The notes under the pieces: generated by a model
What the model was told of the DNA's origin: nothing
Seen by the model: only the letters and a program-made list of their open reading frames with translations
Database searches by the model: none
Part shown: positions 29,768-31,960 of the stretch, in pieces
Layout: each line of letters starts with the position of its first letter
Position numbering within the stretch: position 1 is the first letter of the stretch
Translations under genes and position numbers: made by a program
Source of the DNA: an uncultured Opitutaceae bacterium
GTDB lineage: Bacteria > Verrucomicrobiota > Verrucomicrobiia > Opitutales > Opitutaceae
Assembly: GCA_903862935.1 (NCBI GenBank)
Contig: CAIOZY010000038.1
Location: 1-53,073 of the forward strand
Direction: 5' to 3'
DNA: 53,073 nucleotides

Positions 29768-30967
29768 ATGCCCTTTTCCGATGACCGCACCTCCTGGTTT
29801 GAAGGTCAGGGATTGTGGCAGCATGTTCCCGAGTCCGATTGGCAAGACTGGATCTGGCAGCTAAAGAACCGGCTGACGACGATCGGGCAACTCGAGCAGT
29901 ACATGACCCTTACGGCCGAGGAGAGGGCAGGCTGCATCAACGCAAGCCACAAGCTCGCGCTGGCGATCACCCCCTACTTCTTCAACCTGATCGACCGGGA
30001 AAATCCCGACTGCCCTATCCGTCGACAGGTCATTCCTCGGGCTGCAGAAATGCTTGTGACCGAGGAGGAAATGCTCGATTCACTCGGCGAGGACAGCCAT
30101 TCGCCGGTTCCGGGCCTGGTCCACCGCTATCCCGACCGCGTGCTCTTCCTGGTGACGGACCGCTGCGCGGCCTACTGCCGCTACTGCACGCGGAGCCGCC
30201 TCGTGTCGAACGCCCAGGACTACAACTTCCACCCCGAGTTTGAGCAGGGCCTGCGCTACATCGAGGCCCATCCCGAGGTTCGCGACGTGCTGCTTTCGGG
30301 TGGAGACCCCCTGCTGCTCTCCGACAAAAAGATCGAGCACCTGCTGAGCCGCCTGCGCGAAATCCCCCACGTGGAGTTTATCCGGATCGGCTCCCGAATC
30401 CCGGTGTTTCTGCCCCAGCGCATAACGCCCGCGCTGGCCGACATTTTCCGCAAGTACGGCCCGATTTGGATGAGCATCCACGTGAACCATCCGAACGAGT
30501 GCACGGCCGAGCTCCGGGCGGCCTGCGACCGGCTTTCCTTTGCCGGCGTGCCTCTGGGAAACCAGAGCGTGCTGCTGCGCGGCGTGAACGACGACGCCGA
30601 GGTCATGAAGGCGCTCGTGCACCGGTTGCTGAGAATGCGCGTGCGCCCGTACTACCTGTACCAGATGGACCTCATCACAGGGGGAAGCCACTTCAGGACG
30701 GACATCGCCAAGGGGATCGAGATCATCCGCGCCCTGCGGGGGCACACCTCGGGTTACGCCGTTCCCCAGTTCGTCATCGACGCCCCGGGCGGCGGCGGAA
30801 AGGTGCCGATCAACCCGGACTACATCGAGTCGATCACCGAGGACGAGGCTGTCTTCCGCAACTACGAGGGAAAACTTTTCCGGTACCCGCTTAAGAGCAC
30901 ACCCCGGCGCGAGTCCGGCCAGGTCGAGGTCCAGCCCGAGGCCGTTCCATCCTCTTTTCGGGCCTGA
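29768..30967 (+). CDS. kamA: KamA-family radical SAM lysine 2,3-aminomutase
   Basis: The 399-aa radical SAM/PLP enzyme converts L-lysine to beta-lysine. The 4Fe-4S motif CAAYCRYC uses Cys133, Cys137 and Cys140. Asp301 (in YQMDL) and Asp338 (in VIDAPGGGGK) match the two aspartates, 37 residues apart, that hold the lysine amino group in the clostridial enzyme. Glutamate 2,3-aminomutases change these, so lysine is the likely substrate. The zinc-site cysteines of the clostridial enzyme are missing: NDD replaces NDC, and there is no C-terminal CxCxxC, the chain ending soon after. No beta-lysine acetyltransferase (ablB) or aminomutase pathway genes are adjacent. EF-P-modifying EpmB is a shorter alternative. 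Confidence 0.88.
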   Translation: MPFSDDRTSWFEGQGLWQHVPESDWQDWIWQLKNRLTTIGQLEQYMTLTAEERAGCINASHKLALAITPYFFNLIDRENPDCPIRRQVIPRAAEMLVTEEEMLDSLGEDSHSPVPGLVHRYPDRVLFLVTDRCAAYCRYCTRSRLVSNAQDYNFHPEFEQGLRYIEAHPEVRDVLLSGGDPLLLSDKKIEHLLSRLREIPHVEFIRIGSRIPVFLPQRITPALADIFRKYGPIWMSIHVNHPNECTAELRAACDRLSFAGVPLGNQSVLLRGVNDDAEVMKALVHRLLRMRVRPYYLYQMDLITGGSHFRTDIAKGIEIIRALRGHTSGYAVPQFVIDAPGGGGKVPINPDYIESITEDEAVFRNYEGKLFRYPLKSTPRRESGQVEVQPEAVPSSFRA

Positions 30968-30988
30968 TTGCCCCCCCGGCGCCCGCTC

Positions 30989-31012
30989 TGCCCCATGGGG
31001 CAAAAGATTTTT
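30989..31012 (+). terminator. Weak intrinsic terminator after kamA
   Basis: The palindrome TGCCCCATGGGGCA (30989-31002) can form a 5-bp stem with a CATG loop and is followed by AAAAGATTTTT. It lies 22 bp after the kamA stop. The stem is short, so efficiency is uncertain. Confidence 0.4.
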
Positions 31013-31093
31013 GGATTATTTTTGAGCATTCCCCGCCCCACGGCGTCTATCTCCTCGAAACAAGCCGTTCGCGAGAGCGGTTCTGTTTAAAGT

Positions 31094-31168
31094 AGTTCTT
31101 ACGGTTTGCTTGGTGTTAGGTCACACGGGGCGCTTCGCAAGGAGCGCCTCTTGTGTTTATGGGGGTCA
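31094..31168 (+). repeat. 75-nt repeated element with covarying hairpin, copy 1
   Basis: This aligns without gaps to 31270-31344 with 64 of 75 positions identical; the first 32 are identical. The second half folds into a hairpin with arms 31122-31136 and 31141-31155 and a GCAA loop. It has one C/T mismatch and two G-T wobbles, and is followed by GTTTA. Differences from copy 2 in the stem mostly keep or improve pairing. Likely roles are a small-RNA 3' end with terminator, a processing site, or a genome-wide REP-like element. I do not recognise a named family. Confidence 0.7.
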
Positions 31169-31269
31169 AGGTGCCGGAGAAAAAATCTGGAAATTTGTTT
31201 GATCGTTTTGGGGCCGGACGCGTCTACCTCTGTGCAGCCACAAAGATCGATAGAGCAAAGGGTGGTTGC

Positions 31270-31344
31270 AGTTCTTACGGTTTGCTTGGTGTTAGGTCAC
31301 ATGAGGCGCCCCGCAGGGGGCGCCTCACGTGTTTTAGGGGTTCA
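31270..31344 (+). repeat. 75-nt repeated element with covarying hairpin, copy 2
   Basis: This is the second copy, 176 nt downstream of the first. The stem (arms 31298-31312 and 31317-31331, loop GCAG) has 14 of 15 positions paired by Watson-Crick rules, with one A/C mismatch, and is followed by TTTTAGGGG. Relative to copy 1, T-A becomes C-G at the top of the stem, T-G becomes C-G, and G-T becomes A-T, so the structure rather than the sequence is kept. It lies just upstream of the lipoprotein promoter and would insulate that gene if it terminates transcription. Confidence 0.7.
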
Positions 31345-31348
31345 CTCC

Positions 31349-31377
31349 TTGAATACTTACCTAAGATATTCTATTGT
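31349..31377 (+). promoter_or_regulatory. Candidate promoter of the glycine-zipper lipoprotein gene
   Basis: TTGAAT (31349-31354), a 17-bp spacer and TATTGT (31372-31377) match the sigma-70 consensus at four of six positions in each box. The start would be near 31384, leaving a leader of about 64 nt before the ATG at 31448. The sequence is locally AT-rich, in contrast to the surrounding genes. Confidence 0.45.
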
Positions 31378-31447
31378 AATGTGATGGAAATAACACCGTT
31401 TCCAAAGCAATGGAACAAACGTCTGGGTAGTACGGACTAACTCAGCC

Positions 31448-31960
31448 ATGACCCAACCGACTAAGCTCATCCTAACTTTATCCCTGTGCGCTCTTTGCGC
31501 AGGTTGTGTGGGGACAGGACCCAATACACAGCAAGGGGCCGTCGCCGGTGGCGCATTGGGCGCTCTGGCCGGCGCTATCATTGGAAACAACAGCGCAGGC
31601 CACAACGGACTCGCTGGGGCCCTGATCGGCGGCGCCGCCGGGGCGATTGCCGGCGGAACCCTCGGCAACAGTGTCGATAACCAGAGGGGAACCCTGTACC
31701 GCTCCGAGCAGGAAGCGGCGACTACCGTCACAGTCCAGCAGCCCCCGGCCATGCCCGCGCCGCCCCAGGAGGTCATCACGGTGCAGCCCGGTCCCCCTGG
31801 AGCACTGTGGGTCAACGGGTATTATGCCTTTGATGGCTACCGCTACGTGTGGGTGGGTGGCCACTGGGAGATGCCTCCCCAGGGCTACCGGATCTATGTG
31901 GCTCCGCACTGGGCCTGGAGGCGCGGATCGTACGTCTACATCCGCGGCTACTGGCGCTGA
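31448..31960 (+). CDS. Glycine-zipper lipoprotein with C-terminal YxWxGGHW motif
   Basis: The 170-aa protein has a lipoprotein signal with lipobox LCAGC (Cys20). A glycine-zipper region (GGALGALAGAIIGNN, GALIGGAAGAIAGG) resembles the Gly-zipper segment of outer-membrane SlyB/OmpA-like proteins. A Pro-rich linker follows, then a WVNGYYAFDGYRYVWVGGHWEMPPQGYR segment with aromatic motifs of the WxxGxW/YxWxxG type seen in exported proteins. It is probably a small outer-membrane lipoprotein of envelope integrity or stress. It is preceded by its own promoter-like sequence and the repeat element. Confidence 0.75.
   Translation: MTQPTKLILTLSLCALCAGCVGTGPNTQQGAVAGGALGALAGAIIGNNSAGHNGLAGALIGGAAGAIAGGTLGNSVDNQRGTLYRSEQEAATTVTVQQPPAMPAPPQEVITVQPGPPGALWVNGYYAFDGYRYVWVGGHWEMPPQGYRIYVAPHWAWRRGSYVYIRGYWR

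Follow-up and report, generated by a model that had tools for sequence, protein, structure and literature searches.

What are the two similar elements that lie side by side downstream from a kamA-type gene in an uncultured Opitutaceae bacterium: genes for a structured RNA, leaders of the next gene, mobile repeats, or the product of a local duplication? The window, that is, the whole stretch of DNA analyzed here, comprises the 53,073 nt of contig CAIOZY010000038.1 (assembly GCA_903862935.1). The original prediction had described the elements as ungapped 75-nt copies at an offset of 176 nt with identical first 32 nt, and our repeat search reproduced all of this. The direct repeats occupy positions 31094-31168 and 31270-31344, with a spacing of 176 nt, and align without gaps at 85% identity. 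The shared 32-mer is found in the window at just these two sites when up to three mismatches are allowed (0 of 100 shuffles). The stem changes claimed earlier (T-A to C-G, T-G to C-G and G-T to A-T, with loops GCAA and GCAG) proved correct on reading both arms of the hairpins, which are GGGGCGCTTC-GCAA-GGAGCGCCTC in copy 1 and GAGGCGCCCC-GCAG-GGGGCGCCTC in copy 2.

Two predicted sRNA genes in tandem

As far as the sequence can tell, the 75-nt repeats are the 3' parts of two tandem small RNA (sRNA) genes, whose functional units would span approximately 31022-31160 and 31199-31336. The units are longer than the repeats because a promoter element of its own and a 5' hairpin precede each copy. The features are as follows.

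29768-30967, + strand: kamA-type radical SAM gene (lysine 2,3-aminomutase family; PF12544/PF04055), the usual upstream neighbor, outside the RNA
30989-31012, + strand: terminator-like hairpin, TGCCCCATGGGGCA + AAAGATTTTT (terminator-site prediction)
31022-31049, + strand: promoter-like element of copy 1 (-35 TTGAGC at 31022-31027, 16-nt spacer, -10 CGTCTA at 31044-31049)
31056-31160, + strand: predicted sRNA copy 1, approximately 100-105 nt, its start deduced from the promoter
31058-31088, + strand: variable 5' hairpin of copy 1 (5' segment z -2.9)
31105-31121, + strand: core of copy 1, TTTGCTTGGTGTTAGGT (conservation across copies)
31122-31160, + strand: GC-rich hairpin of copy 1, terminator-like and covarying, with its short U tract (terminator prediction, covariation)
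31199-31226, + strand: promoter-like element of copy 2 (-35 TTGATC at 31199-31204, 16-nt spacer, -10 CGTCTA at 31221-31226)
31233-31336, + strand: predicted sRNA copy 2, approximately 100-104 nt, its start likewise deduced
31233-31270, + strand: variable 5' hairpin of copy 2, unlike that of copy 1 in sequence (5' segment z -3.5)
31281-31297, + strand: core of copy 2, identical to the core of copy 1 (repeat comparison, 60-copy alignment)
31298-31336, + strand: GC-rich hairpin of copy 2, terminator-like and covarying, with its U tract (arms 31298-31331)
31448-31960, + strand (that of the repeats): glycine-zipper lipoprotein-like gene, the next one downstream

The hairpin at 30989-31012 probably closes kamA transcription ahead of the first sRNA promoter. 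Both copies end in a terminator-like hairpin, although with a short U tract of three to four T directly after the stem. The predicted RNAs (approximately 105 and 104 nt) fold with -42.9 kcal/mol (z -4.1) for copy 1 and -46.3 kcal/mol (z -5.0) for copy 2, and for neither did any of 200 shuffles fold as well.

A conserved core and a covarying hairpin

Comparison with other genomes revealed a common layout of the copies: often a T-rich stretch, then TTGARC(GTTTT), a spacer, CGTCTAYC, a variable 5' part, the core, the hairpin and the U tract. We based the comparison on 60 copies, obtained from 68 sites with at most two mismatches to the 17-mer core by removing seven duplicates (leaving 61) and one more copy with an identical core. 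The window and loci found by BLAST with the 75-mer contributed 31 of them; the other 29 are from loci fetched with a pattern that included most of the 17-mer, so that their core invariance is partly by construction. The covariance model found two further copies, complete or almost so, in BLAST loci, and these were left out: one in L030 is truncated at the beginning of its contig, and the other, the second copy of L032, is diverged, falls outside the two-mismatch key and scores 50.6 bits with the model.

Fifteen of the 17 core positions are invariant among the 60 aligned copies and the other two are at least 90% conserved, partly as a result of selection of the copies. Of the 31 copies that pass the key in the window and the BLAST loci, 30 have the exact 17-mer. 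Diverged cores do occur, in the second copy of L032 and in L145, L146 and L152, and members at second loci vary at the end of the core. A pattern search for AAGG variants of the core returned 23 stretches, all of them assigned to Opitutae, Opitutaceae, Opitutus, Rariglobus, Cephaloticoccus or Verrucomicrobia.

The 3' hairpin changes in sequence while its pairing is kept. In the 60-copy alignment, which was made by sequence (MAFFT) rather than fitted to a structure and from whose own rows the structure was taken, 12 of the 14 pairs have changed on both sides. The cells of the hairpin are paired in 92.1% of cases, versus 81.7% in shuffled alignments, and none of 500 shuffles scored as high on any of five measures; versions of the structure slid along the alignment reached a pairing of 62.3% at most. 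The 5' part ahead of the core is different in this respect. It is 12 to 54 nt long, and its segment folds with z < -1.5 in 28 of the 60 copies and more weakly in 19, the remaining 13 being too short to score. A 5' hairpin is not a general trait of the RNA family.

A coding repeat was rejected: in 26 of the 60 copies no reading frame that begins with a start codon stays open across the core, and in one frame a stop codon lies in the core of 59 of the 60. An identity as tRNA or tmRNA was rejected as well, after a search for both.

A putative ECF-type promoter at fixed spacing

The motif TTSARY-N16-CRTCT lies upstream of 55 of the 60 copies, with a spacer of 17 nt in three more and of 15 nt in none, compared with a mean of 0.01 in shuffled upstream sequences. 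The two copies that lack the pattern at all three spacings, one of them copy 2 of the window with its TTGATC, are one base off. The fixed spacing of this element is, like the conserved core and the covarying hairpin, a computational result. A matrix built from 49 distinct promoters of the family, both window promoters among them, scores 27.8 at 31022 and 31.2 at 31199; elsewhere in the 53-kb window, on both strands, the score does not exceed 8.9. The element of copy 2 was also recovered by the two promoter-pattern searches described below. The elements do not resemble TTGACA-TATAAT, and no sigma-70-like site was found in positions 30900-31500.

The available part of a source on extracytoplasmic function (ECF) sigma factors gives AAC at -35 and CGT at -10 as the hallmark of their promoters (PMC8103513). 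Among 50 promoters tabulated here, the -10 element is CGTCT in 39 and CATCT in 11, and the fifth base of the -35 element (TTGAGC/TTGAAC) is G in 32 and A in 17. By its spacing and -10 element, TTGAAC/TTGAGC-N16-CGTCTA fits the ECF-sigma type, with the exact AAC of the -35 element in a minority.

The bacterium itself has 16 loci with sigma-70 region 2, primary-type and ECF-sized proteins among them. Within approximately 1.5 kb on each side of these 16 genes, we found no family promoter in front of any; the best score, 14.3, is inside a coding region. The cognate sigma factor would therefore be one without visible autoregulation. As approximately 55% of ECFs are autoregulated, according to the available part of the same source (PMC8103513), this is weak counter-evidence to ECF control.

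Other RNA-like units behind the same promoter

A search for the promoter only (TTGARCGTTTTGN10CGTCTAYC, at most two mismatches) in 37 same-family genomes gave 26 matches in 19 genomes, against one for the reversed control. On reading, 17 of these precede RNAs with the first core, six precede RNA-like units with another or a diverged core, and three are coding (L083, L084 and L090). The six other-core units comprise three copies in G031, and further ones in G024 and, singly, in G021 and G001. A sister core, CTRGTTTGTAGTTTGATAAGT, occurs in genera that yielded no first core; G024, G334 and G355 have two copies of it each, and G031 has five, approximately 180 nt apart. The sister RNA type with the same promoter was seen at L215:1567-2420, L209, L210 and L214.

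With a looser promoter search of 387 genomes sampled evenly across the phylum, the same-family part gave 29 matches in 22 of 37 genomes (reversed control 0). The other 350 genomes gave 16 matches in 14 genomes versus eight in the control, so that about half of the outside-family matches are expected by chance. Those at L154, L156-L160, L164 and L173 lie, by eye, in coding sequence and look like chance; L162 (G250) is A/T-rich and may or may not be one of them, and the matches in G230 and G372 are outside those read. In two other families of the order, G218 (a tandem pair) and G209 show the same build, with cores that are perhaps related. At the G218 pair (L133, G218:C1:791754-792102), the promoter is present and the core, CATAAGTTTGTTGTTTGG, is diverged. 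L153 and L155 (G089 and G273), from a distant family of the phylum, have the same ECF-type promoter ahead of another kind of terminator-ended unit (ACCAACAACTCCCTGA ... terminator).

A copy of the core and hairpin on a phage contig

Exact-pattern scans of 2.9 million viral contigs identified the core together with the hairpin on one phage contig of 26 kb, at L216:3979-4045 on the - strand. It consists of GTTTGTAGTTC-TACGGTTTGCTTGGTGTTAGGT and a strong hairpin. Its place is an intergenic gap close to the gene for the major head protein (phrog_1328), from which a small ORF separates it. With the covariance model it scores 39.3 bits (E 5.8e-9). By eye, neither an ECF-type promoter nor a U tract is seen at this copy. 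The occurrence of core and hairpin without promoter supports a function at the RNA level, and the phage copy may mimic the host sRNA or act as its decoy. The other 10 viral contigs with the 17-mer share nothing else with the RNA family, and 18 further contigs from a looser pattern look unrelated by eye, the best of them, L237, having a model E of 0.004. With the method used, no further contig turned up whose head protein is related.

Proposed mode of action

Taking promoter, core and hairpin together, we think it probable that the window holds two tandem sibling sRNA genes of approximately 100 nt, each with its own ECF-type promoter and terminator, whose products act in trans through the core. 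In the mechanism that we propose, transcription, the ECF sigma factor as reader and the pairing of the core with mRNA are all inferred. Each sRNA would be transcribed from its own ECF-sigma-type promoter and end at the GC-rich hairpin with its short U tract. Both RNAs would be made once a signal, probably stress of the envelope or of another kind, sets the sigma factor free. The G/U-rich, mostly unpaired core GGUUUGCUUGGUGUUAGGUCA would then act in trans, most likely by pairing with C/A-rich stretches near the translation starts of several mRNAs, without Hfq or ProQ. The 5' hairpin may protect the RNA while being free to vary, and the presence of two or more copies may supply dose and redundancy.

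We searched for the chaperones in 22 genomes, the bacterium's own (G000) and 21 others, most of which carry these sRNA-like genes. Hfq (PF17209) was found in none of the 22, with controls positive in five of 14, and ProQ (PF04352) in none of the 22, with controls positive in one of 14. As neither was found, pairing would be unaided or would rely on another protein.

Complements of the core give no excess in the genomes. Matches to the 16-nt core complement with at most two mismatches in 37 genomes numbered 63 in all, of which 35 were assigned to the RNA genes themselves; the 28 non-self matches left compare with 45 for the reversed control. A long partner common to all these genomes, for example rRNA or tRNA, is less likely on this evidence. 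We also compared core pairing at the starts of 24 genes for TonB-dependent receptors with that at 33 genes of the window, and saw no signal: the mean rank fractions, taken against shuffled cores and with gene starts guessed by script, were 0.38 and 0.41, and short seeds are beyond the power of such target searches. The best-pairing receptor start, L247 (G000:C48:34744-35079), reached -25.3 kcal/mol, with one of 200 shuffled cores as good, which is not significant after 24 tests.

Because no mRNA target was found, a protein-binding role of the core stays a serious rival. The sRNAs would be the same, but the core would be a site that titrates an RNA-binding protein, as in a CsrB-like or 6S-like sponge, rather than an mRNA seed. 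That the core is nearly invariant, yet without an excess of matching complements in the genomes, agrees with such a role. So does the multiplication of copies (the sister type forms a row of five in G031), since tandem copies would add binding sites, and so does the phage contig, where the core has the same sense, as is expected of a decoy or mimic. The recognition motif of CsrA is of the GGA type, and by eye the core has no GGA-type repeats; nor do the folds include the long bulged hairpin of 6S RNA, and there is no Rfam match. On balance we consider titration unlikely, and pairing of the core with mRNAs remains our preferred reading. The conserved core and the phage copy suggest binding to something that is important and conserved in the host.

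A broader scheme can be put forward tentatively, and we hold it to be more doubtful than not. One alternative sigma factor, conserved in Verrucomicrobiota without Hfq and ProQ, would have mostly sRNA genes as its output, set in tandem sibling arrays. The core would have been swapped in sister genera (TTTGCTTGGTGTTAGGT versus CTRGTTTGTAGTTTGATAAGT), an unrelated RNA may stand in for these sRNAs in a distant family, and at least one phage would have taken the core without the promoter, near a capsid gene, as mimic or decoy.

Genomic setting

The sRNA-like genes keep their upstream neighbor. Of the 47 loci of the first set, 39 have a kamA homologue upstream and on the same strand, with 66-86% identity (100% for the window itself), and in 32 of these 39 it is estimated to lie 90-420 nt before the core. 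Another 13 loci had been selected because of a second copy or a weak match, and kamA is present at three of them, which indicates that a second, scattered class of loci exists. The RNAs of this class are short, have little sequence ahead of the core and in many cases show a -10 element of the CGTCTTTC type and the hairpin loop AGGGGT; inspection of their contexts showed no common neighbor gene. Short second-locus members in varied gene contexts, many with the loop AGGGGT, are L137-L144, L147, L038, L040, L042, L044 and L053.

This setting bears on whether the element could act in cis, as a tandemly duplicated leader or attenuator of the gene that follows, which in the window is that of the glycine-zipper lipoprotein. 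This gene (31448-31960) is indeed on the same strand, the element ends in a terminator hairpin, and a glycine-zipper gene was detected at three of the other 59 loci compared (L009, L023 and L152). However, the downstream ORF differs between genomes and is on the opposite strand in several (for example, L017, L020, L029 and L033), whereas the upstream kamA is constant in 39 of 47 loci, and no alternative antiterminator fold is apparent in the folds. The variable downstream ORFs largely refute a leader, which we reject as very improbable. By these computations the predicted RNA gene is a free-standing unit, independent of the downstream gene.

Spread within Opitutaceae

The original prediction had proposed to search the genome and its relatives and to build a covariance model from the hits. 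In the genome itself there are two copies only; the next matches, with E 0.06 or worse, cover part of the hairpin half. Among relatives, 28 of 37 same-family genomes have a match to the 75-mer with E < 1e-4, as opposed to none of 20 other genomes of the order. The covariance model, built from the 60 distinct copies and strongly covarying, matched with E <= 1e-5 in 111 of 150 same-family genomes, representing 35 of 49 sampled genera, with one to four matches per matching genome; the other 39 genomes gave no match at this threshold. Two copies in any genome and nowhere else was the outcome that the prediction had set against its own claim, and copies were found instead across same-family genomes.

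Outside the family the signal fades. Among the 387 evenly sampled phylum genomes, 29 of the 37 same-family ones match at E <= 5.9e-9, and the best of the 350 others are G283 (1.4e-6), G086 (5.7e-6, over model positions 25-72 only) and G422 (1.1e-5). The matches in G283 and G422 read as ordinary gene ends and were rejected as family members. The outside-family matches that were read (L132, L134, L136 and L149-L151) look like ordinary gene ends without promoter, as does L135, in a same-family genome; the G218 pair (L133), with its promoter, is the exception. Most other weak matches in the phylum, which were not read individually, cover model positions 25-72 only, that is, a generic GC hairpin. 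The 117 phylum genomes with a match at E <= 0.01 largely reflect generic terminator hairpins and are unusable as a tally. The RNA family is thus carried by most sampled Opitutaceae bacteria, and is apparently undescribed. Its conserved gene place and its family-wide spread were both established by computation.

The original prediction had left two forms side by side, small RNAs with terminators and a structured intergenic repeat; the sequences favor the former, and the kept place after kamA and the one to four matches per genome go against the latter. A mobile or dispersed structured repeat without RNA function (REP-, BIME- or MITE-like) might have been suspected from the tandem copies, the hairpin and the several loci in some genomes. 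It is not favored because the first locus stays after kamA and because matching genomes hold so few matches. The two copies in the bacterium's own genome and the exact promoter spacing also stand against it, as does a blastn search of 72,556 plasmid and 50,697 phage records, which gave no match; we find this reading hardly tenable. A recent local duplication without function, the null of the original prediction, has in its favor that the genome holds these two copies only, but deserves almost no credence for an RNA that is present in 35 of 49 sampled genera and whose compensatory changes keep the pairing.

Relation to known RNAs

The original prediction knew of no named family that fits, and the Rfam search agrees: no family matched the window at gathering score, so that a known Rfam family was rejected, and the only relaxed match, over 511 bases, was SprD with E 7.6. 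We found no fitting Verrucomicrobiota sRNA or core sequence in the literature searched, outside which most subscription journals lie. A widespread and easily recognized RNA with a defined promoter makes the sigma factor, the signal and the Hfq- and ProQ-free mode of action directly testable.

GcvB has a G/U-rich seed and works with Hfq. In sRNAs of this type an unpaired G/U-rich region pairs with C/A-rich mRNA, as we propose for the Opitutaceae RNAs; the likeness is one of analogy only. A second comparison concerns sibling sRNAs, among which the csRNAs have their core between two hairpins. As described in the available portions of two sources (PMC4507080, PMC4211561), the csRNAs of Streptococcus, OmrA/OmrB, PrrF1/2 and AbcR1/2 are found as two or more related RNAs per genome, often in tandem and under one regulator, and the arrangement here would be likewise. 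According to the same portions, the csRNAs are controlled by CiaR and act additively, and OmrA and OmrB have their first 21 and last 35 nt in common and differ between (PMC4507080, PMC4211561). The Opitutaceae RNAs differ from these known siblings in belonging to another phylum, in their ECF-like promoter, and in having a conserved core before the terminator hairpin and a variable 5' part.

For the promoter, the closest parallel is the ECF41 type. The available text on this characterized ECF class gives the promoter TGTCACA-n16-CGTC, which is bipartite with a 16-nt spacer and CGTC at -10, as in the Opitutaceae element (PMC3426412). The Opitutaceae -35 element is instead TTGARC(G)TTTT, and the genes that it would drive look like RNA genes. 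For function, the comparison is with the RpoE-dependent MicA, RybB and MicL of Escherichia coli, which the available part of the ECF source describes as sRNAs made from strong ECF-sigma promoters; like them, the Opitutaceae RNAs are proposed to be the trans-acting RNA arm of a stress response (PMC8103513). Unlike them, they are tandem siblings with an identical core, have no Rfam match to those RNAs, come from genomes in which Hfq and ProQ were not found, and gave no outer-membrane receptor signal in our limited target test. By kind, the predicted RNAs are a new family within the known class of sigma-controlled sibling sRNAs.
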